A DNA stretch of 35,347 nt from the IMG/VR virus record IMGVR_UViG_3300008450_000185, positions 1 through 35,347 of that record; one strand, 5' to 3'. Source of the stretch: a virus. The notes under the pieces were generated by a model, which ran no database searches, was not told the DNA's origin, and worked only from the letters and a program-made list of their open reading frames with translations. This document shows, in pieces, positions 3,429-35,192 of this stretch. The stretch's first letter is position 1; every line of letters begins with the position of its first letter. A program made the position numbers and the translations under genes.

Positions 3429-4529
3429 ATGGCAGTCACCAAACTAGACAGGGCCAAAGTTGCCGTTGTCACTCAGCATCCGTTCTTCGCATCTATCCTC
3501 ATGAAGCGCCAGCTTATCGAAGACAACACCATTCCGACTGCTGCTGTCGATCAGCGTGGGCAGATTTACTACAACAAGGAGTTCTTCGAGGGTCTTGAGG
3601 TTGACGAGATCGTGTTCGTCTTAGCCCACGAGGTTGGCCATGTCATCGGTCAGCATGCACTGCGCCGTGGTGCTCGTAACGCCAAGAAGTGGAACATCGC
3701 TGGTGACGCGTGGATCAACGACATGCTCAAGGATGCTGGCATCGGTTCTGTCATACCCAACTGTGTCAACATGCCCGGCTCCAAGGACGACACTGTAGAC
3801 AACATCTACAACAATCTGCCGGATGATCCTGACGGCCCCGGCGGTACAGGCGATGACCTGATCGAGCGCGGCCCACCTTTGTCAGCTGATGAGGCTGATC
3901 GTATCGACGCTGAGACTCGTGTCGAGATTGCACAAGCAGCGCAAGCAGCTAAGGCTCAGGGTAAGATGCCAGCTTCGCTGGCTAAGATCGTTGCTGACCT
4001 CATCGACAGCCACACGCCATGGCAAGATATCCTCGAGCGTTATATGACCACCTTCACTCGCGGTGACTACACATGGGCACGACCTAACCGCCGCTTCGCT
4101 GACGTATACCTGCCGTCTACCGGCAAGTCCCCTGAGATGGGTGAGGTTGTCATCCAAGTCGACGTGTCTGGTTCTATCAGCAAGAAAGAGCTTGACCACT
4201 ACAACGGGCACTTACAACGCATCGTGTCACTGTGCAACCCTAGCCGCGTACATGTCTTGTATGTCGACACTGCTGTAGCCAAGCATGAGGTGTTCGAGCA
4301 AGGCGAAGAGGTAGCACTTACTTTCTACTGTGGCGGCGGCACTGACATGGAAGAAGGCTTCAACTACATCGCCAAGGAGGGCATCAAGCCAGAAGTGTTC
4401 GTGTGTCTCACAGACGGATACACAGACTTCAATACAGCCAACGCTCCTGACTATCCGGTAGTGTGGTGTATCTCTAGTGACATCGAGGCCCCTTACGGCG
4501 ACAATATCCATTTTACTCTGGAGCAATGA
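3429..4529 (+). CDS. HExxH metallopeptidase-like / VWA-like protein (DUF2201 type), 366 aa
   Basis: Two parts are visible. Residues 1-190 form a metallopeptidase-like domain with HEVGH (His67, Glu68, His71) and a downstream AGDAWIND segment around Asp93 that probably supplies the third metal ligand. Residues 235-366 form a VWA-like domain with a MIDAS-type motif DVSGS (Asp245, Ser247, Ser249), a GGGTDM loop and CLTDGYTD. This order matches the DUF2201/VWA-like family. VWA proteins commonly partner MoxR ATPases, and one is encoded at 793-1791 in the same operon. A Gly/Pro/Asp-rich linker (PDDPDGPGGTGDD) lies near residues 129-143. Whether the peptidase site is active cannot be told from sequence. 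A host-directed protease or a complex-remodelling role are both possible. Confidence 0.85.
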   Translation: MAVTKLDRAKVAVVTQHPFFASILMKRQLIEDNTIPTAAVDQRGQIYYNKEFFEGLEVDEIVFVLAHEVGHVIGQHALRRGARNAKKWNIAGDAWINDMLKDAGIGSVIPNCVNMPGSKDDTVDNIYNNLPDDPDGPGGTGDDLIERGPPLSADEADRIDAETRVEIAQAAQAAKAQGKMPASLAKIVADLIDSHTPWQDILERYMTTFTRGDYTWARPNRRFADVYLPSTGKSPEMGEVVIQVDVSGSISKKELDHYNGHLQRIVSLCNPSRVHVLYVDTAVAKHEVFEQGEEVALTFYCGGGTDMEEGFNYIAKEGIKPEVFVCLTDGYTDFNTANAPDYPVVWCISSDIEAPYGDNIHFTLEQ

Positions 4530-20238: not shown

Positions 20239-23200
20239 TTAATCCTCCACTATAGATTCTGCCAGTTTGCGCTGGCCTTCCCGATATGCTACACCACCTA
20301 CCGTGCGCTTCTCGCGCTCCCGCTGCTCTTGCGGTGCTTTCAACAAGGTGGATACTGGTTGCGGTTTCAAGCCGTTACGCTGGCGAGCCTGCTGGAGTTT
20401 AGTCCATTCAGTGCGGGCTTCGGCCATAGCTGCGGTGTCTTTTTCACGGACAGCTTTTGTGTAGTCGTTCTTGATACGAGTAGTGCGCTCAGTAAAATTC
20501 TTGGTCACATCACGCATGCGATTCTGGCGCTCATAGGTCACAGCTTGCTGTACGACAGGCACACCCAGAGCAGTAAACACTGTATCGAGAGCGCTGATTT
20601 CGCTGTTCGGCAAGATCACATCACCGTTGCGACGGGTCATACCTTCAGCAGCTTGGCGACCCGCTTTCAGTGCGTCAGACACACCCTTGGGCATGGTCCG
20701 CTCAACACCCTTATAGTAGTCACCACTGGCAATTAAACCGAGGCCGTCAATCACACGAGATGTCATACCCAGAGCGGCACCGCCCATCAAGGTACCTAGC
20801 GCTTCGGCGCGGCCTGCGTTGGTGTTCAAGTCAGCGTTGCTGAATGGCATGATGGACAGCATATTACCAGCGCCGATCTTGCCGGACAAGTCCATACCGA
20901 CTACCGTGGGAGCGCCGCGCATGATTATGTCAGCCCACTCTGGGCCAATTGCTTTGCGCATGTCAGCAGTTAAGTCGTACGGCTCGTCATCGTCGCCAAA
21001 GAAGCCCAAGATTGCCGAGATAGCGGCGTAGCCGGGAAGGCCCATCATGCCAGCGAACACGGCGGTGTGGCTAAGCGAGTAGGCCAGAGTCCTCATTGCG
21101 GCTGCGCGTTCTTCGGGCTTGGTAAACGCATCGCGGAACAGCTTGGCGTAGAACGCAATCTGGATCAACTGGAACTTGCGGAACTGCAAAGCCACTTTAC
21201 CCCACTGGGTATTAAACGCACGAGGCGCGTTGAAGGCTGTGTAGTCACCATGGGTGTCAGTCAGGATGTCGGCAGCGTATTGCGTTGCTTTGTCAGCATC
21301 TTTGGTCTTGGCGAACTCAAGGCGGTACGCAGCGATGGCTGTAGACAAGCGATTGACAGCTTCGGTCTTTTGGACCGCCATACGCATGCCTTTGTTCAGG
21401 CGCTGTGCAAACTGGCTGAGTTTGCCGTCGGCTTCTACCTTGTACTCGTTGATTTCAGTGGCCAGACCAATGTCAATCTTGCCTTGGTTAACTAAGTTGT
21501 TGATGGCCGTGCGCACATCCGCAGGCACCTTGGAGAAATCAAACTGCTCGTCAAACAGCTTCACGTCCTTGAACAGAGGGCCCAGCTCGGTGTACGCCTT
21601 AGCCATCTCAGCAGCAGCCTTGGTGTAATCATGGCGACCCGCCATGGCAGGCAGCGACATCATAAACGGCTGGGTCAAGTTCTGTAGGTAGTAACCCGGA
21701 CTAGTAGCCAAGAAGAACTTAGACGCCAAGTTAGTCAGGCCGTTGATGAACGGGCTTGGCTGTGGGTCCAGCGTACCTGCGTAGCGTTGGGTCAGCTCAT
21801 CAAAGATTTCAGACTTGCGTTCGCGGTCGCCAGTGCGTGACTGGTTACGCATCTGCTGCAAGGCTTCTTGAATTTTAGGCTCGTACTCAACGCTGGCCAA
21901 GAAGTTGGCATCGGCACGGCCTTGCTGGGTAAACGACTGGAGCATGTCCACTTCACCGGCCACACCCCGACGGCGCATTTCAGACTTGCGGGCACTACCC
22001 TCAGCCAACGCCTCCAAATACAACTGGTTGATGATGTTGAGCAACTTGCCAGCAGTCGGGTCTTTCTTACCACTAGCGTCTTGGGCACGGCGGTCTACAG
22101 CGGCACGCATTTTTGTCAAGGCAGGCAGCATGGCCTCGCCGCTAAACGCCTCGTCAAACGACTCAGAGCGCGAAACAACTTGCGGATCAGTAAATACGCC
22201 TTGCTCTGCCAACCTGTCGCGCAAGCTACGGGCCTGCCACTTTGTGTCCGTGAACGACACATGGTAATGATCTGGGTCAGACTCCAGCTTCTTGATAGTG
22301 GCAGTGTCTTTGTTAGCCTTGGCTTTTTGATATTCCTCAGACTCACCGATCACCACGTACGAACCAGTGCGCTTAATCGGCGCGTAGGGCATGCCCTCAC
22401 GGATGCGGAACAGTGTCTGGAAACGCTTGAGCGTAGCAACTTTTTCAGCCTTGAGGGTAGCCTCGGTCTTGGTGTCACCGGAGTCCTGAGCAGCCTTAAT
22501 CATGGCGTCGTACTCAGAGTTGGTGGCGTTCAGCACAACTGTTTTCTTATTAGACAGCGTGGAGTCACCATGGGCAAATACGTCTTTTACGAACTGCTGG
22601 GCCTTGGGGCCTAACTTGTCAAAGGCAGCGCCCATCTCGGCATCACGGAACTTACCATAGCCCCACTTACCCATACGGGTGGACTCAAACAAGAACTCAT
22701 TGACTGAGCCGGGGCCGTCACCTTTGAACTTATTTTCGATGGACGCATAGCGGTCTGCAATCTTTTCGATCTTGCGTTCTTCTTCGCTGACCTTGGCGTT
22801 GCGTGAAGCTAGGCGGTCAGAAAAAGTTTGAGCAGCGGGTAGACCAGCAGCAACCGCACGCTTGACCAAGTCACTGGTAAACATCAAGTAGTCCAGACCC
22901 CTACCACCCAAGTCACCAAGAGCACCGGTCAAGTTACGTACCGGCTGCTGCGACATACGTGGCAGCTTGGCGATGTTGCGGTCGATCAGTCCTTGCTTTT
23001 GGCGGCTGGCTCGAGAAACTGTTTTAGCAAGCTGCGCCCCTTGTTGTCCAGTTTGAACTTGTCCTGACTGAGCACCTTGCTTGGCACCTTGGGCGGCTGC
23101 GTAGTTCGTTGCTTTAACTTGTTCATGCACTTTCTCCATAAAAGCGTGTGTGGTTGGCAGGTTATCACGGAGAAAATCCATGCCGCCATTCATGTTGGAA

Positions 23201-26200
23201 AAAGCCCACACCTGAGCAAAAACTTCCTCGCGGATTTCTTGAGCTGACAGCGAACGGTTCAGCTTGTCAGACATATCCAACGGGTAGTTTAGCAGGTAGC
23301 CCAATCCAGTGGTGTCGCTGTTGTCCTCAAAGTAGTTCAGGATTTCATCCGCAACGGTGCCGGGGCGCATGGCCATAGGCTCACCGTTTACCTTGGACAT
23401 CTTGAACTCGCGGTCGCCAGAGAACTTGCCTAAGCCGCCTTGCACTTCGTCGATACCATGGCCGACTTCGTGGAGTGTGGCAATGACAGACAGCTCTTTA
23501 TCCTTGAGGATTAAGCCGTTGTAAACAATCGTGCGCTTGCCGTCCATGATGGTGTAAATAGCATCCCACTTGACCGGGGAAAACGTCACCATCCAAGAGT
23601 CAATGGCGTCAACAGCGTTACCCATACCCGAGTTACGCAGACTATTGATACCAGCAGCAATGCCGTCTGAGTAGCCAGACAAGTCGTCTAGTGAAGCCTC
23701 TACAGACTCAAAATCAACGCCGTCTTGGTCGGTGCTGCGAACACTGCGACGCGACATGCGGGTAAAAACTTCTTGGGCTTTTGCTGGAGTTGGCGCTGGA
23801 GTTTTAGCGGGAAACATAGCCGCAGTAGCAGTCTGATCGTCAGGCAACACAAAGATCATGCCGCCGTTGAGCATGTCAATGTTTGGCAGAATGGACTTCA
23901 GGAAGGTGTCATGCGAGGTGTTGACACAGCCATAGCTGATTCGGTTGTCCTGTGCCGATGGACTTGCCAAGCGACCGGAACGGTTTTCTTTTGCGTCGCC
24001 AAGATAAGCAGCATGGACGGCAATAATTCCACCGTCTTCTTGAGTTTCTACTAACGTCAAGACCATACCACCTGCATAGTCGGAGTCTGGAACAGCTTGT
24101 AATGTAAATTTACCGGCAGGGGTTATCTTGGCTCCACCCTTCAACGACGAGACCGCGCCTTTTACATCACCAATGTCTTTGCCGTACAACGCTGCGTCTT
24201 GAACAAGCACAGAGCCATCTGCCCTAAATACATGCAGCATGCCGTTTGGCTTGTCGGCAATCATAAAACCTTTGCCTGAGGCCATGGCCGTAGGAGCCAT
24301 TGATTCATAGACTGACTGCGCTAGCACGGACATCTTGGCTTTAGCGTTTGCGGGGACTTCAGCCTTGGCTTGCGTAGCAACTGTTTCTTTGTAAACCTGC
24401 GGCAGGTTGAAGTCAAACTTGTTGGTCAGCCCAGTAGGATTAAAAATTACACCAGCAGCCAGCACACCCCCGGCAATGGCTTTAATGATGGAGCGGATTG
24501 CTCCAGCAACGGCCTCTGCACCCTTGGTAGAGTACAGCACCACATCAGCTTGGAGCTTGGCAAAGAACTCAGCCGTACTGCGCTTAACGCCGTAGTGTTC
24601 TTCCAGCTTCTGGGTCTGCGCAGCAGGCAGTTCGGCGACTGCGGTTTCTAGTATGGCTTGTGGGGCAGCAGGAACTTCAGCAGCAGCCGCTACCGAGGCA
24701 GGCTTCTCACCCATCAGTTTGTTGGCCGCAGCCAAGTTGGCTACGCCACGTTTTGCCAGATCAGTCCAGCGAGCCTGCTCGTTGCTATCCAACTCAGAGT
24801 ACGAAGGCATGCCGGGGAACTGTTCCGCTAATGCTGCCCACTGCTCCGCTGGAGTCTTGATTTGCACATTTTCTTGTGTTACTTCCGCTTTGACGGGCTT
24901 TGCACGGACGATTTTGGCTTTACCTTGGGTGGCAGCTTGGCCCCCTTTGGTGTCTCCTTTGCCCACTTCTTGGCCAGCTCCGGCTGGTTCTGAAACAGGT
25001 ACGCTCGCTGGGCTTGGCTTTTGAACGGCATCGGTTTTCTCCAGTTTGGCCAGTTTGACTGACAGCTCTTTGGTCTGCCCACTCTGAAATGCCACGGTGA
25101 CAGTAGTCGCATCGCCATCACCGGCAAAGCTTTTAATCACACCAGTGCCCAGCTTGGGGTTCTTGACGTTATCGCCCACGGCAAGGCCGTTGCGGTCAGC
25201 CTGCAGTTTGGCAGCACGCTCGGCGCGGAGCTTGGCAGCTTCGGCTTCTTTGGCGGCGTCTTTTTCTTCAACCGCTTTTTCAGCAGCTTCTGACTTGGCT
25301 TTGCCCTTGGTCTTCTTAGGCGCAGCAGCTTCAGGCTTGGCTTTGTATCCAGCAATCAGCGCGTCATATTCAGCGGCCAACTCGTTAATACGCTCAGTAG
25401 CAGCCGCCTCAGCTTGCGTTAAACCAAGCTGTTGTAATTCAGCAGCAGCTGTTTTTAACTCGGCAATGGTGTCCGCAATGGATACCAGCCTAGTAGCCAT
25501 TTGACTACCAGCAGTACTGGCTTTCTGCCATTCACGGGCATCGTCCAAGTTGCCAAACGCTTCACCAGCTTCACCCTCAATGCCAGCTTCTTTAAACGCG
25601 GCGGTCATGTCGCCGGACTCAACTTCGTCGTTGATGCGAGTGATTTGCTCGTCCAGCTCTGCCATTCGGGCAATTTCAGCTTTAGTTGGTTTTGCTTTAC
25701 CTTTAAGGCGCGACAACTCACCTTCGAGCTTACCGAGTTCGGTAGCCAAGGCTTTCTGGGCAGACTGAATGCCCAAACGATCAAACACCTGAGCCCGGTC
25801 AAAGCCCATGGAAACAGCGATGTCAGCCAGTTTTTCTGGGTTGCCAATTTGACGAACGCGGGATTCCGCAATGCCAAACGAGTCAGCAATTTCCTTGGCA
25901 ATGTTGCCCTTGTAGCCGCTCGGTACAGCACGACGTGCAGTAATATAGGCACGCAGAATCTGGCGATCTCGGTCTACGTTCTTGCCTTTGCCTAGCTGTT
26001 CTTCGATTACCGCGTTGAGGTCGTCCTCAGTAAAGTCGCGTTGGTCAGCACGCAAGCCAGCTTCGTCTTCACGCATGGCTTCGATTTCGGAGGCGTTTCC
26101 GGTGGCGCGAGCAATCTCCAAAGCGTCTTCAGATGTATCTACTAGCGCAGTGGTACCAGCGGCACCACGGGTAGTTGGTTCTTGTCTTTGCGGCGCTGCT

Positions 26201-27930
26201 TGGATGGCTTGAGGGGCTTGAGTGGCAAGTGGTGCTCCGGTAGTTACAGGGGTAGTCGGTTGCCCGGCGGCGATTGGAAGAACGCTAGTTTGTCGAAGTG
26301 GGGCTCCAACTGCTGGGGCACTTGCGTCCAAAGCTCCTCCGACAGGAGCAACGCGTCTTGCATCTCCCAGACCTCCTTGAACGATAGCGCCCCCGACTCC
26401 CACGCCTCCTGCAGGCTGTCGTACAGTAGAAATTGGTAAGCCAACTGGTGCCTCCTTGCGGGACTGAATGATGGCAGCATCCATGAGCTCGGTGGCCTTG
26501 GTGAGGCGGCTTGGAGTCATGTACTTTGCGGCTGCGTAGTTCCACACTGGAACCATAATTGGAGATGTAGGGTCAATGCCCTGCTCTTCCATCATAGTAA
26601 ACAGCTGGCGGCTGTTATTGTTCGGGACTACCTTGAGCTCGTCTCGCAAGAACACATCACGTGGATCACGCGTGGTAGCTACCTTAGAAGCCGCAAGGGC
26701 AGCAGCGGCAGTGTCGGCGGGGTTTGCCCCGGTCAAGTCCATGGCTGTGGAGCCACGCTGCATCAACTCACCAACAGTCAGTTCGCGTTCAACGCCAGTA
26801 GTAGCATCAGCAACAAACTGACCGCTAGGCTCATTGAAGGCAGTCTCAAACTGTTTTGCGTAGTCTTTACGCGATGGGCGTTCCACCCCAGTATTTATGT
26901 CAATAAACTTCTTCAGGCCAACAGTCTTATCCTGCGTTACAAACTGACTAGGGTCTGGGCGTGTAGTGGTATCAAGCGGCTTGGTCAGGTCTGACTCTGC
27001 GTTAGGACGTTGCGGACTACGGATACCGCCAACACCGCCAAACAAACCACCAAGCGTAACACCCCCAACAGCAGCGTCTAGGTAACGGCGATTGGCGGCT
27101 TCGTTAAAAAGAGTCTCGTTAGGGTCAACCGCCATGCGACCGGCGACTTGATTTATTAGCTCTTGGCTCGGCTCAGCAATACCTTCACCTGCGGCTCCAG
27201 TGCCTATCCCAGTTGCAACACGGCGCGTCAAGCTGCCATCAACGCTGATAAGCGGACGCAGGCCCCGGGCAATTTGACCTTCAATGCCAATAGCGTTTAG
27301 CGCTGCGTACGGAACACCGCCAAGAGCAGCAGCACCCAAGTTCTCCCCGCCAGCTTCACGTTGAGCCGACAAGATGTCACCGACGGCGCTTGGGTATCCA
27401 GCGGCAACCGCCCCTGCTTGGCTAGCAGCAGCACGAGTAAAGCCCATACGAGCCGCAGTTCCACCCAAAGATAAACCGCCTGTAAGCGCACCAGCAGCGG
27501 CTTCGCCTAAATATGGCAGCGCTTGGGCAGCTAAACCACCAGCGTAATTTAAACCGCTTCCAAAACCGGTGACGTCTCTAAAATCAGAGATACCGCCTAG
27601 CTCGGCAGCTCGTTGTTGTGCGTATGCAGCAGAGCCTTCGTTAGCTTGACGGCGAGCATCAAAAGCACCAGCTATACCTTCTGCACCAACACCGCGAGCA
27701 ATAGCCCCACCAAGACCTAATAAATTAGCTTGGTACTGGTCAACACCAGCAGAAATACGACTGCCAGTTAAGCCACGCCCAGCGCCAACGTAACCTACTT
27801 CGGCTGCGTACGCATCAAGAGATGGGTAATAGCTTTTGTACTGCTGAAAGGTACTTTGCAGAATGTCTTCATCCGTAAGGTTGCTAAGCCCGCCATTAGC
27901 TTTACGAATGTCTGCAATTGAACGTGGCAT
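20239..27930 (-). CDS. Giant polyvalent virion protein with L,D-transpeptidase-like and HExxH domains, 2563 aa
   Basis: A single uninterrupted frame. Residues 1-310 are Gly/Ala-rich with hydrophobic patches. A Pro/Ala/Thr linker (about 525-595) is followed by a helix-turn-helix (about 657-697, IAKEIADSFGIAESRVRQIG), a coiled coil (715-770), an SH3/Tudor-like segment (about 915-965, GDNVKNPKLGTGVIKSF) and a hydrophobic helix (about 1140-1165). A YkuD-like L,D-transpeptidase domain spans about 1190-1360 (ITPAGKFTL, His1306, ISYGCVN with Cys1335). HEVGH (His1487, Glu1488, His1491) follows near 1380-1600. The C-terminal 700 residues resemble large polyvalent protein-associated domains, with a hydrophobic segment near 2280-2308. 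Late-gene placement and size point to an ejected internal virion protein. AAGG precedes the start. Confidence 0.88.
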   Translation of the reverse strand: MPRSIADIRKANGGLSNLTDEDILQSTFQQYKSYYPSLDAYAAEVGYVGAGRGLTGSRISAGVDQYQANLLGLGGAIARGVGAEGIAGAFDARRQANEGSAAYAQQRAAELGGISDFRDVTGFGSGLNYAGGLAAQALPYLGEAAAGALTGGLSLGGTAARMGFTRAAASQAGAVAAGYPSAVGDILSAQREAGGENLGAAALGGVPYAALNAIGIEGQIARGLRPLISVDGSLTRRVATGIGTGAAGEGIAEPSQELINQVAGRMAVDPNETLFNEAANRRYLDAAVGGVTLGGLFGGVGGIRSPQRPNAESDLTKPLDTTTRPDPSQFVTQDKTVGLKKFIDINTGVERPSRKDYAKQFETAFNEPSGQFVADATTGVERELTVGELMQRGSTAMDLTGANPADTAAAALAASKVATTRDPRDVFLRDELKVVPNNNSRQLFTMMEEQGIDPTSPIMVPVWNYAAAKYMTPSRLTKATELMDAAIIQSRKEAPVGLPISTVRQPAGGVGVGGAIVQGGLGDARRVAPVGGALDASAPAVGAPLRQTSVLPIAAGQPTTPVTTGAPLATQAPQAIQAAPQRQEPTTRGAAGTTALVDTSEDALEIARATGNASEIEAMREDEAGLRADQRDFTEDDLNAVIEEQLGKGKNVDRDRQILRAYITARRAVPSGYKGNIAKEIADSFGIAESRVRQIGNPEKLADIAVSMGFDRAQVFDRLGIQSAQKALATELGKLEGELSRLKGKAKPTKAEIARMAELDEQITRINDEVESGDMTAAFKEAGIEGEAGEAFGNLDDAREWQKASTAGSQMATRLVSIADTIAELKTAAAELQQLGLTQAEAAATERINELAAEYDALIAGYKAKPEAAAPKKTKGKAKSEAAEKAVEEKDAAKEAEAAKLRAERAAKLQADRNGLAVGDNVKNPKLGTGVIKSFAGDGDATTVTVAFQSGQTKELSVKLAKLEKTDAVQKPSPASVPVSEPAGAGQEVGKGDTKGGQAATQGKAKIVRAKPVKAEVTQENVQIKTPAEQWAALAEQFPGMPSYSELDSNEQARWTDLAKRGVANLAAANKLMGEKPASVAAAAEVPAAPQAILETAVAELPAAQTQKLEEHYGVKRSTAEFFAKLQADVVLYSTKGAEAVAGAIRSIIKAIAGGVLAAGVIFNPTGLTNKFDFNLPQVYKETVATQAKAEVPANAKAKMSVLAQSVYESMAPTAMASGKGFMIADKPNGMLHVFRADGSVLVQDAALYGKDIGDVKGAVSSLKGGAKITPAGKFTLQAVPDSDYAGGMVLTLVETQEDGGIIAVHAAYLGDAKENRSGRLASPSAQDNRISYGCVNTSHDTFLKSILPNIDMLNGGMIFVLPDDQTATAAMFPAKTPAPTPAKAQEVFTRMSRRSVRSTDQDGVDFESVEASLDDLSGYSDGIAAGINSLRNSGMGNAVDAIDSWMVTFSPVKWDAIYTIMDGKRTIVYNGLILKDKELSVIATLHEVGHGIDEVQGGLGKFSGDREFKMSKVNGEPMAMRPGTVADEILNYFEDNSDTTGLGYLLNYPLDMSDKLNRSLSAQEIREEVFAQVWAFSNMNGGMDFLRDNLPTTHAFMEKVHEQVKATNYAAAQGAKQGAQSGQVQTGQQGAQLAKTVSRASRQKQGLIDRNIAKLPRMSQQPVRNLTGALGDLGGRGLDYLMFTSDLVKRAVAAGLPAAQTFSDRLASRNAKVSEEERKIEKIADRYASIENKFKGDGPGSVNEFLFESTRMGKWGYGKFRDAEMGAAFDKLGPKAQQFVKDVFAHGDSTLSNKKTVVLNATNSEYDAMIKAAQDSGDTKTEATLKAEKVATLKRFQTLFRIREGMPYAPIKRTGSYVVIGESEEYQKAKANKDTATIKKLESDPDHYHVSFTDTKWQARSLRDRLAEQGVFTDPQVVSRSESFDEAFSGEAMLPALTKMRAAVDRRAQDASGKKDPTAGKLLNIINQLYLEALAEGSARKSEMRRRGVAGEVDMLQSFTQQGRADANFLASVEYEPKIQEALQQMRNQSRTGDRERKSEIFDELTQRYAGTLDPQPSPFINGLTNLASKFFLATSPGYYLQNLTQPFMMSLPAMAGRHDYTKAAAEMAKAYTELGPLFKDVKLFDEQFDFSKVPADVRTAINNLVNQGKIDIGLATEINEYKVEADGKLSQFAQRLNKGMRMAVQKTEAVNRLSTAIAAYRLEFAKTKDADKATQYAADILTDTHGDYTAFNAPRAFNTQWGKVALQFRKFQLIQIAFYAKLFRDAFTKPEERAAAMRTLAYSLSHTAVFAGMMGLPGYAAISAILGFFGDDDEPYDLTADMRKAIGPEWADIIMRGAPTVVGMDLSGKIGAGNMLSIMPFSNADLNTNAGRAEALGTLMGGAALGMTSRVIDGLGLIASGDYYKGVERTMPKGVSDALKAGRQAAEGMTRRNGDVILPNSEISALDTVFTALGVPVVQQAVTYERQNRMRDVTKNFTERTTRIKNDYTKAVREKDTAAMAEARTEWTKLQQARQRNGLKPQPVSTLLKAPQEQREREKRTVGGVAYREGQRKLAESIVED

Positions 27931-27940
27931 AACGACAACC

Positions 27941-29581
27941 TTATTTTAGTCCGAGTGTCTGCACAGCTGCAGCAGTTAATCCCTCGGTTAGCGCGGCACG
28001 CTGCGCTCTCAATGCGTTAAGTCTATCACCGTACAGCCTAATCGCCGTGGTGTCTCCTGAACGAACTGCAGCAGATGCCTGAGCCTGAGCCTGCGTAATT
28101 GCTGTATCCAGTGCGGCAGCATCAGCTCTAATCTTTTCAATATCAACAGTAGACAAATCACCCGGGCCTCTGCGAGTTGTCGTTGCAGGTGTTTTTGCAG
28201 CTTTTTGAGCGTTTTGCTTTTGAAGACCAGCGTCTACATTGGCATCAGCAGGCCCACGACCATATAACTGATCTGCCCGAATAAGCGCATCAGTCGGCGA
28301 AAAACCAGCGTCAGTAAAACTCTTGACAGTGGCTGCGTAGTCTCTAGGTGTGAACTCAGGCCTTGCCGCTGCGCCCAGCGGTACGGCGTTACCAGCTTTG
28401 GCATTCGCCATGTTGAACTGCCGGATAAGACCTTGGCCTTTTGCGCCTACTTGTTCTTCTGGTGAGAGAGCTTCATACTCTGCTCGGATTTTTTGCGCTT
28501 CAACGTTAGCAGCGGCTTGTGTTTTGAGCATCTGCGCCTGTAGACCACGCAAACCGACAGTAGCGTCAGAAGCACGAGTTTGCGCGTTTTGCGCGTCAAT
28601 AGCACTCTCTGTCTTACGCAGGGCCATCATCCAAGAGCCAATGGTCTCAGGCTCAATGGCTTGCTTATTCAAAAACTCAGTAGCCAGCGCTTCGTTTTTA
28701 AACGACTGAGAACTCGTAACTTTGCCAGTTGCTTTATCAATAAAGTTAAGCGTGACAGCACCGCCCTTACCCGGCACAATAGCCAAGTCGGTCTTGTCGT
28801 CAAAGTCAGGGTCTGAGTTGTAAAGCTCACCCAACTGAGTAAGATTTTTGCCCTGTAGCTTTTTCTTGACAGAGTTCTTAAAGCTGTCCATCTCGCCTGT
28901 CTCAATTTGCAGACGTGTAGCCACAGCCGCTTGCCACTGTTTAGGAGTGAACTTAAACTGTTTAAACGCAGCGTCTTTGAGTTCTTGCGTGGTGGCGTCC
29001 GGGCGTTCGGCAGCAAATGTTGCAAAATCAGTTTCCCGTTGTATTTCGGCTTCCGCCCGCGCAAGCGCGTTAAGGCGCAACCCTCTTTCGGACTGCCCAA
29101 GCGAAAAATCCTGTGCGGCTCGGCCTTCGGCGGCTACGTCTCGGGCTTCGCGAGCTTCGGCGCGTTTTTCGGCAGCGAGAGCACGTTGTTGTTCGTATGC
29201 ACGGGCTTCCAGTGCATCAGCTTTTTCGACGTCGCCATACCGGCGGTATACACCCGCAAGGCCTTCGGCTCGTAGTGGAGCGGACGCTTGACGGGCTTCT
29301 TGACGAGTAGCAAAATTGGTGGGGCCGCTAGCTACAGAGTAGTCAGGGGCTGTGAGTCCTTGGCGGCGTGTCAGTTCTTCAATGGCTTGGTCATACGCCG
29401 CAGCCTGCGCCGGGTCTTGGTCACGCAGACTTTGAAGCTGCTGGATGTTTTCTTGCAAGCCGGGGCCATAAGCGCCTTCGGTGACGTTGTATCTTGCGGA
29501 TTCTTGCGCCAAGTCACTGGCTCTTTTAGCCCCGGCAATGGCTTCAAGGCCTACACCGATGTTGTTAAAATTTAGGCGCAT
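27941..29581 (-). CDS. Probable internal virion/structural protein, 546 aa
   Basis: A mostly helical, Ala/Gln/Arg-rich protein with long coiled-coil stretches (residues about 120-190, RAYEQQRALAAEKRAEAREA; and about 470-546). The middle (about 240-330) holds a small beta-rich domain (GGAVTLNFIDKATGKVTSS). No enzyme motif, signal peptide or membrane segment. It lies between the giant polyvalent protein and the S74-tailed protein, the position and composition of T7-like internal core proteins. I infer that it is packaged in the virion; direct family assignment is not possible by eye. Confidence 0.7.
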   Translation of the reverse strand: MRLNFNNIGVGLEAIAGAKRASDLAQESARYNVTEGAYGPGLQENIQQLQSLRDQDPAQAAAYDQAIEELTRRQGLTAPDYSVASGPTNFATRQEARQASAPLRAEGLAGVYRRYGDVEKADALEARAYEQQRALAAEKRAEAREARDVAAEGRAAQDFSLGQSERGLRLNALARAEAEIQRETDFATFAAERPDATTQELKDAAFKQFKFTPKQWQAAVATRLQIETGEMDSFKNSVKKKLQGKNLTQLGELYNSDPDFDDKTDLAIVPGKGGAVTLNFIDKATGKVTSSQSFKNEALATEFLNKQAIEPETIGSWMMALRKTESAIDAQNAQTRASDATVGLRGLQAQMLKTQAAANVEAQKIRAEYEALSPEEQVGAKGQGLIRQFNMANAKAGNAVPLGAAARPEFTPRDYAATVKSFTDAGFSPTDALIRADQLYGRGPADANVDAGLQKQNAQKAAKTPATTTRRGPGDLSTVDIEKIRADAAALDTAITQAQAQASAAVRSGDTTAIRLYGDRLNALRAQRAALTEGLTAAAVQTLGLK

Positions 29582-29582
29582 A

Positions 29583-30536
29583 TTAAATCTCCACCATTTC
29601 TACGCCAATCATGCCGTAGTTGACTGACTTAAATCCATTTGCATCCATAAAGACTGCTTCTGGCATAACTGCTTCAACTTCGTCCGCCATGACGCCACGG
29701 AACTTTTTGCCCGGCAAGAATGTGTACTCGTATTCGTACAGGTTAAAACCAGACACTGGATCAATGCCAGCAAGTTCAACATTAGTTTTTAGGCGTCGGT
29801 CAGAGAAAGCTGTATACGCCGCTGCGCCGCCCTTCAAAAGACTGCCGATATCCAGCCCTTGTTGCGACATACCAGCGTTATACGCAGAAGTCTGCGAATT
29901 GAGTATGCCGCCGTAAGTCTGGCCAGCTTGCTGCATACCTTGCATGTACTGACTTCCGGGAGCCATAGACGAACCAAGACCCGCTGAACCAGCGCCCGTA
30001 GCAGCGCCGTAAGCCGCAGTAGATGCACCGGCAAGGCCGCGTCCAAGGCCAACGGCGTCTAGTTTCCTAGCGTAGCCTATCTGTTCAGCCTGATTGCGAG
30101 CACCAGTCATAGCGCCAGCACGAGCAGAAGCAAGGCTGAGCGCGTTTTGGTTCTGCATTGCCATGGCGTTACCGGAGCCGGGGCCTACACCTCGCCGTGC
30201 CAGATTGCGCGATGTCATTCCTTCGGCGGCACCAAATGCACGGGCAGTATCAGCAGCAGCCTGTGCGGCTATCCGTTCTCGGTTTGCTTCAGTATCATAT
30301 TCTTGCGCCTGCGCAACAAGCCCTCGCTCTACCGGCCTAAACGTCTCTTGCTGGTAGTCGTAGTACTCCTTCGCCTGCTTCATCTGTTGCTCTTGGGAAG
30401 CCAACTGCTGGTTCGCAACGCGCTCGGCTATAGGCTTCATATCAGCGTACTGCCGTTCAGCAAACGCCAGCTGCTTTTCCCCGAGCTCTTTCATCGGCCC
30501 GTAGTCTGGTGGTGGTGGACTAGATTTACCGCCCAT
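29583..30536 (-). CDS. Virion protein with S74-like C-terminal chaperone domain, 317 aa
   Basis: Residues 1-110 are helical and charged (KQLAFAERQYADMKPIAE, then QAKEYYDYQQETF). Residues 110-240 are Gly/Ala/Ser/Gln-rich low complexity. The last 73 residues start SDRRLKTNVELAGIDPVSGF (Ser245) and continue FRGVMADEVEAVMPEAV and SVNYGMIGVEM. This is the pattern of the intramolecular chaperone of endosialidases and tail fibres (Peptidase S74), which normally trimerises and self-cleaves at the serine. Here the protein is encoded among internal virion genes and has no beta-helix before the tail. The proline run SSPPPPDYGP opens the protein. Confidence 0.82.
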   Translation of the reverse strand: MGGKSSPPPPDYGPMKELGEKQLAFAERQYADMKPIAERVANQQLASQEQQMKQAKEYYDYQQETFRPVERGLVAQAQEYDTEANRERIAAQAAADTARAFGAAEGMTSRNLARRGVGPGSGNAMAMQNQNALSLASARAGAMTGARNQAEQIGYARKLDAVGLGRGLAGASTAAYGAATGAGSAGLGSSMAPGSQYMQGMQQAGQTYGGILNSQTSAYNAGMSQQGLDIGSLLKGGAAAYTAFSDRRLKTNVELAGIDPVSGFNLYEYEYTFLPGKKFRGVMADEVEAVMPEAVFMDANGFKSVNYGMIGVEMVEI

Positions 30537-34601: not shown

Positions 34602-35192
34602 TTACGCGCCAAGTACCTCAAGAGCGTGTGCGATGTGTTTCTTGCGGTCATCTAGGCCGATTATTCCACCGTTAATCTTTTTGGTCATGCCCTCGATGTC
34701 GTTAGCATCTGCAAAGGCGTTGAGCCCGCTCTTATCCCAGAACCACGCTGCGGTCAAGGCGGCGTATTCTTTGGTCAGCACAAGGTCGGGGTCAGCAACA
34801 AAGTCCACGCCCAAGGCATCCGAGGCCAAGCGGTAGTTGTCTTTGCCGGTCAACTGGATCAGGCCACGGCCTCGATACTTCCAGCCATCCCCCTCCTCGG
34901 TGTTACCCATCCGGCCAGAGTAGACCTTGTTGGCAATTTTCTCGGGCTGGCGATGAAACGGCTGCGCCGCCTCTTCTGACGGGAATCGGCTGGGCCATGT
35001 GCCGCGCAGCCCCTTGGCGCTGTAATTCAGGTTCTCTTGCAGAGTCTTGAAGTTGGCCGACTCATGGGCACACTGCCCAATGAACGCGGCTTGGCGCTCG
35101 GGGGTGTTGATCTCAAAGCGGAAAAAAGAGGACTCCAACGGCTCAAGCCATGATGGGTCGATGTGCATTTCAGCAAGTTGGTCTTCGGTCAT
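34602..35192 (-). CDS. GH19-type endolysin, 196 aa
   Basis: The sequence fits phage GH19 chitinase-fold endolysins. IGQCAHESANFKTLQENLNY carries the first catalytic Glu44, followed by KVYSGRMGN, then EEGDGWKYRGRGLIQLTGK with the second acidic residues near Glu99/Glu100, and AALTAAWFWDKSGLN. The enzyme cleaves peptidoglycan sugar chains. There is no signal peptide or membrane anchor, so it would need a holin; the gene whose stop overlaps its start (35189-35192) encodes a two-helix membrane protein. No spanin pair is seen in the window. Confidence 0.92.
   Translation of the reverse strand: MTEDQLAEMHIDPSWLEPLESSFFRFEINTPERQAAFIGQCAHESANFKTLQENLNYSAKGLRGTWPSRFPSEEAAQPFHRQPEKIANKVYSGRMGNTEEGDGWKYRGRGLIQLTGKDNYRLASDALGVDFVADPDLVLTKEYAALTAAWFWDKSGLNAFADANDIEGMTKKINGGIIGLDDRKKHIAHALEVLGA

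Follow-up and report, generated by a model that had tools for sequence, protein, structure and literature searches.

A giant polyvalent-type protein and its genomic surroundings

The window analysed here, a viral metagenome record of 35,347 bases taken over its whole length, encodes on its minus strand a protein of 2563 aa in a single uninterrupted reading frame (20239..27930), with the extent that the first-pass annotation had assigned to it. The conserved C-terminal region of this giant (residues 1887-2543; 20302..22272, minus strand) matches the PLxRFG tail model NF032893 (E 1.1e-93, 315 bits), and a search against PHROGs returned the DarB-like family phrog_10089 (1.3e-60). Giants with a similar tail were found in 33 phage records, encompassing phages of Gram-negative hosts and of Microcystis, and Pfam-type searches identified LPD38, LPD39, LPD23, ART-PolyVal and GNAT domains in homologous giants. 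Interchangeable effector domains are here combined with a PLxRFG tail in one multidomain giant, which identifies it as a polyvalent protein. It resembles the polyvalent proteins described previously, DarB-like and PLxRFG proteins included, in being a late-gene product of several thousand residues with swappable domains, an HExxH motif and the PLxRFG tail (PMC5512222). The HExxH instance, HEVGH (residues 1487-1491; 23458..23472, minus strand), is a zincin-type metalloprotease motif typical of polyvalent proteins (PMC5512222) and lies immediately downstream of the YkuD domain described below; since it is retained in relatives without YkuD, it belongs to a separate domain.

Two further segments of the giant showed similarity to known domains. 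Residues 918-965 (25036-25179, minus strand) resemble a PcrA/UvrD-type tudor domain (TIGR01075, 2.3e-7; PF21196, 6.8e-4, below cut-off), and residues 653-695 (25846-25974, minus strand) a sigma-70 region 4-like helix-turn-helix (E 0.007, below cut-off). Because the tudor domain of PcrA/UvrD contacts RNA polymerase, its counterpart in the giant may be host-takeover cargo.

Upstream of the giant lie, in this order, genes encoding a 546-aa protein (27941..29581) and a 317-aa protein (29583..30536), both on the minus strand, beyond which come an acetyltransferase gene and one for an internal virion protein (phrog_511). The 317-aa product matched the virion/DNA-ejection family phrog_8003 (1.1e-36) and the DNA ejection protein family phrog_4287 (1.9e-13). 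It ends in a Peptidase_S74 domain (PF13884, 9.8e-9), an endosialidase-type intramolecular chaperone that is usual in tail fibres and odd for an internal protein. By gene order, the 317-aa and 546-aa proteins occupy the positions of T7 gp14 and gp15, the latter adjoining the giant in several relatives; gp14/gp15-like genes precede the giant in the same order in L100, L101, L104, L105 and L107, and partly in others. The layout is similar to that of T7 gp14-gp15-gp16, with the giant in the third, gp16-like position (PMC8954989). T7 gp16 couples a periplasmic wall enzyme, an N-terminal lytic transglycosylase, to membrane helices (PMC8954989), and the window giant likewise combines a wall enzyme domain with a hydrophobic helix; it differs from gp16 in that the wall domain is internal, optional and of another fold, the likeness being one of arrangement and not of demonstrated sequence similarity. 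In phage P1, DarB is a component of the virion head (PMC5512222). Synteny with an ejection cassette and the polyvalent-type tail suggest that the giant is very probably an internal virion protein, packaged and ejected with the DNA, in agreement with its first-pass description as a virion protein.

The window also encodes a separate GH19 enzyme (34602-35192). In the early region, a pair of plus-strand genes (727-1791 and 3429-4529) encodes products of which, by eye, one resembles a MoxR-type AAA ATPase and the other a VWA-domain/metallopeptidase-like protein.

An internal domain with a YkuD fold

On the basis of short motifs, the first-pass annotation had proposed the layout of a YkuD L,D-transpeptidase around residues 1190-1360 of the giant. 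The motifs are present (DKPNGMLHVF from residue 1226, ITPAGKFTL from 1269 and ISYGCVN from 1331), His1306 and Cys1335 lie exactly where it placed them and the layout holds, whereas the proposed start is some 30 residues too early, the modelled domain encompassing residues ~1219-1365 (23836..24276, minus strand). AlphaFold2, run with an input alignment of 34 sequences, yielded a confident model of this domain (mean pLDDT 89.4, pTM 0.86), and every PDB match obtained with Foldseek at E < 0.001 was a YkuD-fold enzyme (Pgp2, E 1.5e-5). Structural alignment with VIA-align gave Z scores of 13.2 for Csd6, 12.8 for the M. smegmatis Ldt, 12.8 for the E. faecium Ldt (Ldtfm), 12.6 for YkuD and 12.0 for Pgp2. 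His1306 and Cys1335 (127 and 156 in model numbering) sit at strand edges, the former within strand 125-128 and the latter immediately before strand 157-159. Between the Cys and the point at which the aligned core ends, the model has 27-31 residues and known YkuD enzymes have 22-28, counted from their catalytic positions (in part following PMC4599014), so that the two differ by no more than a few residues. A further set of PDB matches with low E-values, to NHL-repeat proteins, was rejected, as it summed repeated matches of a short beta-hairpin with no single stretch significant.

Searches of Pfam, NCBIfam, PHROGs and PDB sequences with the window domain made no YkuD call, and PF03734 was matched neither by the full protein nor by the domain. 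The domain hence escapes standard annotation, since Pfam, NCBIfam and the PDB sequence search do not recognise the window sequence. The profile search proposed at first pass nevertheless succeeded with distant relatives that align with the window domain over its full length: L080 (34.4 bits), L089 (33.1) and L081 (24.1) exceed the PF03734 cut-off of 23.4 bits, and through them the kinship of the window domain with PF03734 is established by sequence. A phmmer search of PDB sequences with L080 and L089 returned no YkuD chain, and residue equivalence to canonical Ldts was taken from structure and from the Pfam-positive relatives. The structural model and these relatives together indicate that residues ~1219-1365 have a YkuD fold.

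The predicted catalytic base, His1306 (24013..24015), and the predicted nucleophile, Cys1335 (23926..23928), both encoded on the minus strand, are invariant in 38/38 relatives. This set includes stand-alone bacterial proteins and extends down to ~30% identity, and invariance is confined to 12 of its alignment columns, which include H1306, R1317, S1332, G1334, C1335, N1337 and a preceding T-x-A-G. The spacing between His and Cys is 29 in 33 of the 38 relatives and varies from 28 to 34 overall. At residue 1333 the relatives have Tyr, Phe, Thr or Leu, and none has His. The resulting signature, H-X28-S-[YF]-G-C-[IV]-N, is accompanied by an Arg in the His-Cys loop (Arg1317; 23980..23982, minus strand) that never varies and marks the subfamily. 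The Asn at Cys+2 (Asn1337; 23920..23922, minus strand) is likewise present in all 38 relatives, and mycobacterial Ldts also have Asn at this position. In a published comparison, this position is mostly Arg in transpeptidases and Asn is seen in DpaA-like proteins (PMC8263019).

The canonical L,D-transpeptidase motif is HXX14-17-(S/T)HGCh (PMC9638812), and the YkuD-type motif has also been given as H(S/G/D)X14-19C (PMC4599014). The window group departs from the former through its longer spacing and the replacement of the second His, and because of these two differences we file the domain as a new YkuD-fold subfamily outside the canonical motif group; judged by its sequence, the window domain is a distinct YkuD subfamily. 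With respect to mycobacterial and enterococcal Ldts and B. subtilis YkuD, it shares the fold (Z 12-13, with identities reaching 26%) and the catalytic His/Cys, and differs in having S-[Y/F]-G-C in place of SHGC and a longer loop with the invariant Arg1317. The best match, H. pylori Csd6 (138 residues, 2.8 A), also presents the fold and the His/Cys pair, but it is only 16% identical, and the window domain differs from both Csd6 and C. jejuni Pgp2 in its His-Cys spacing of 29, against H(S/G/D)X14-19C (PMC4599014), in showing no visible NTF2-like domain and in sitting within a phage giant.

When 16 YkuD-bearing giants were compared, the majority of them sharing 20-42% identity with the window protein, most of the invariant columns lay within the YkuD domain, and dN/dS against the closest relative is ~0.1 (with dS near saturation), in line with strong purifying selection. 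It is very improbable that the domain is an inactive, structural element kept for folding or ejection only, given this ratio and a catalytic site whose residues all stay constant down to ~30% identity, against variation at most other positions.

An exchangeable module linked to a hydrophobic helix

Giants with unrelated tails share with the window protein only residues ~1085-1377 (23800..24678, minus strand), a block that comprises a helical part, a linker and the YkuD domain. Close relatives identified through the tail instead differ in precisely this region: in nine of the 12, neither the giant nor any other part of the record encodes YkuD, six of these nine records being 57-62 kb long. L096 matches the window giant over residues 47-1052 (64%) and 1341-2563 (86%), the intervening stretch being unmatched, and its slot (L096 residues 1049-1273) holds an ADP-ribosyltransferase (ART)-like sequence instead of the YkuD module. 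The slot of other close relatives, L097, L101, L102 and L105 among them, contains an ART-like domain or ART plus a zincin, and ART-PolyVal was detected by Pfam in 2/8 YkuD-less giants. The slot behaves as an effector exchange site within one gene, its cargo differing between phages whose giants otherwise share 80-90% identity in the C-terminal part. The YkuD module is optional, since it is missing from whole records of close relatives, and constitutes swappable cargo.

All six YkuD-less 57-62 kb records keep a separate GH19 enzyme. As close relatives do without the module and yet retain this enzyme, the YkuD module is not the basic wall-opening tool of these phages. We also abandoned the notion of YkuD as a substitute for a T7-like transglycosylase, because no lysozyme or transglycosylase was found in 16 YkuD-bearing and 8 YkuD-less giants and the slot holds effector domains.

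Within the module, residues 1143-1163 (24442..24504, minus strand) form a conserved, predicted hydrophobic helix that follows basic residues and is signal-anchor-like; residues 1147-1163 are the most hydrophobic 17-mer of the giant. In 36/36 YkuD-bearing giants examined, a hydrophobic peak precedes the Cys by 181 +/- 6 residues, with a mean of 1.69, as compared with 0.62 in random 70-residue stretches, of which 3% reach 1.6; in 13 of the 36 giants the peak is below 1.6. Net charge around the helix averages +2.1 before and +0.1 after it in these giants. The swap regions of L096, L098, L104 and L107 show no comparable peak (0.27-0.77), and longer replacement regions in L097, L101, L102 and L105 reach 1.1-1.6. 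These features suggest that the segment resembles a signal anchor and would direct YkuD to the periplasm. AlphaFold2 predicts confident helices over residues 1089-1163, then a disordered linker and then YkuD, and it puts the hydrophobic helix inside the confident helical bundle, so that in this model the segment may instead be a buried core helix.

Scans of viral contigs yielded 53 loci encoding relatives of the domain. Nearly all those whose frame was followed encode giants, and complete frames give about 2,100-5,000 aa; short stand-alone proteins are encoded by L086 and L090. Other stand-alone cousins (L108, L110, Comamonas), of ~220-315 aa, have signal-like N termini. Three full-length and one partial stand-alone matches were obtained in 100 Burkholderiales genomes, and further stand-alone relatives are encoded on Comamonas, Variovorax and Sphingomonas plasmids; one stand-alone cousin is named L,D-transpeptidase by PGAP. 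BFVD contains similar uncultured-phage proteins, one of them automatically named L,D-TPase domain protein. The YkuD module is real and widespread in uncultured phages.

No cultured phage matched the window domain over its full length. Queries with distant relatives returned from them nothing but proteins limited to the catalytic half, in phages of Stenotrophomonas and Xanthomonas: stand-alone proteins of ~115 aa in Stenotrophomonas phage DLP_5 (L127, 2420-2770) and Xanthomonas phage XacN1 (L129, 1369-1716) that resemble only the His...NGC-I/V-N catalytic half of the window subfamily. All 34 members of alignment A2 matched phrog_38499 (117 positions), which may represent the same group. YkuD-type phage sequences have thus been catalogued before: the PhaLP catalogue of phage lytic proteins holds 10 YkuD entries (PMC8310338), and XacN1 ORF390 is a short 'L,D-transpeptidase'; ORF390 and proteins of phrog_38499 size differ from the window domain in being stand-alone, of ~115 aa, and in containing the catalytic half only.

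One named replicon encodes a full giant, the 60.6 kb, phage-plasmid-like E. coli plasmid pSTEC648_2 (CP061838.1), which carries holin and lysozyme genes. This giant (L128, 8755-15711; 2318 aa), annotated as a hypothetical protein and preceded immediately upstream by a separate GH104 gene, contains a signal-peptide-like segment followed by a divergent YkuD domain; the sequence at the helix position, KALIRKIRNALAAALVGITLWNAQPVADVHAA, resembles a complete signal peptide. The YkuD module of pSTEC648_2 had no match in complete E. coli genomes.

Proposed function and alternative readings

The modelled fold and the conserved dyad make it very likely that the domain is an enzyme acting on meso-diaminopimelate-type peptides. 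As to what it does for the phage, we propose, with a probability of roughly 0.5, that it is an accessory periplasmic YkuD effector module of an ejected polyvalent giant, with hydrolysis or exchange as the likeliest chemistry; an accessory role, and not that of a basic wall-opener, is assigned because close relatives manage without it. The giant would be packaged and then ejected together with the DNA, the hydrophobic helix would insert in the inner membrane, and the YkuD domain would face the periplasm. There it would attack peptidoglycan stem peptides at the L-centre of their meso-diaminopimelate, most likely forming an acyl-enzyme that is then either hydrolysed, as in the L,D-carboxypeptidase Csd6, or used for exchange, as in Tlde1a, crosslinking being the less likely outcome. 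Stems altered in this way near the entry site might allow the conduit to fit, or might blunt crosslink repair by the host.

Precedents for such chemistry exist, as the YkuD fold also serves hydrolases, namely the L,D-carboxypeptidases Csd6 and Pgp2 and the amidase DpaA (PMC4599014, PMC8263019, PMC12729407), and the exchange enzyme Tlde1a has a YkuD-type fold (PMC9638812). Tlde1a, a type VI secretion effector with an altered LDT fold, is also comparable in being a delivered YkuD-type domain that acts on the periplasmic wall of another cell, although its delivery is different, it has a capping subdomain of its own and it retains the His before Gly-Cys (PMC9638812). Structure does not choose between chemistries, because Csd6 and mycobacterial transpeptidases are tied within 1 unit of Z. 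The best match to Csd6, which has carboxypeptidase activity only, the Asn at Cys+2 and the missing His of SHGC hint weakly against crosslinking. In Tlde1a, removal of the His before Gly-Cys (H129A) retains exchange and abolishes most crosslinking (PMC9638812). The missing His does not, however, forbid crosslinking, since the true transpeptidase LDTGo crosslinks with a Glu (Glu262) at the His position of SHGC (PMC10864386).

A broader formulation, in which many uncultured short-tailed phages inject an anchored YkuD protein whose periplasmic part rewrites peptidoglycan at the level of crosslinks, protein anchoring or stem length, resealing the entry wound or excluding competitors, while its other parts act in the cytoplasm, appears rather doubtful. 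We consider it unlikely that the domain is a true L,D-transpeptidase, the activity suggested at first pass, forming 3-3 crosslinks that reseal the wall after DNA entry or harden it against a second phage. The YkuD fold with its intact His/Cys pair, the Z scores of 12-13 with mycobacterial and enterococcal transpeptidases and the PGAP name of the stand-alone cousin would all fit such an activity, but the domain has S-x-G-C without the His and a residue other than Arg at Cys+2, its best structural match is a carboxypeptidase, and close relatives live without the module. In addition, a virion contains few copies of its ejection proteins, insufficient for the whole sacculus, which makes a sacculus-wide change implausible.

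It is quite unlikely that the module attaches or detaches a protein at the peptidoglycan, in the manner of LdtA/B/C, DpaA and Braun's lipoprotein, to anchor the conduit or to release the outer membrane locally. YkuD enzymes are known to do both (PMC8263019; PMC12729407), Asn at Cys+2 occurs in DpaA-like proteins and a trans-periplasmic conduit would be a plausible substrate; against this, no target motif or crosslink was observed, and DpaA ranks below Pgp2 and several Ldts in Foldseek (8ikr, E 4e-4).

A cytoplasmic site of action, with peptidoglycan precursors or recycled stem peptides as substrates, deserves mention because the neighbouring ART and zincin cargo normally acts in that compartment, and the slot of relatives holds ART-PolyVal and zincin domains. 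This location is decidedly unlikely, as every YkuD module comes with the signal-anchor-like helix, which the short swap regions lack, and stand-alone cousins have signal-like N termini. To our knowledge, moreover, no cytoplasmic YkuD enzyme has been described.

The YkuD fold and polyvalent ejection proteins are both already known. The main text of Iyer et al. (2017) covers lysozyme, SpoIID-like and DD-peptidase wall domains and makes no mention of YkuD or transpeptidases (PMC5512222), and we found no description of a YkuD or transpeptidase domain in polyvalent or virion proteins in the openly accessible literature; a few YkuD-bearing polyvalent proteins are automatically annotated in UniProt. 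Judging by the searchable literature, the combination of YkuD fold and polyvalent ejection protein appears not to have been described before, nor does the subfamily or the linked anchor.

The signature defined here marks apparently uncharacterised exported bacterial proteins, which NCBI labels L,D-transpeptidase on general grounds. Known phage entry enzymes mostly cut the wall. If the proposal of an accessory periplasmic effector is true, YkuD as optional ejected cargo would add a wall-modifying activity to the repertoire of injected effectors, and the repair, marking or weakening of the wall by phages after entry would become testable.
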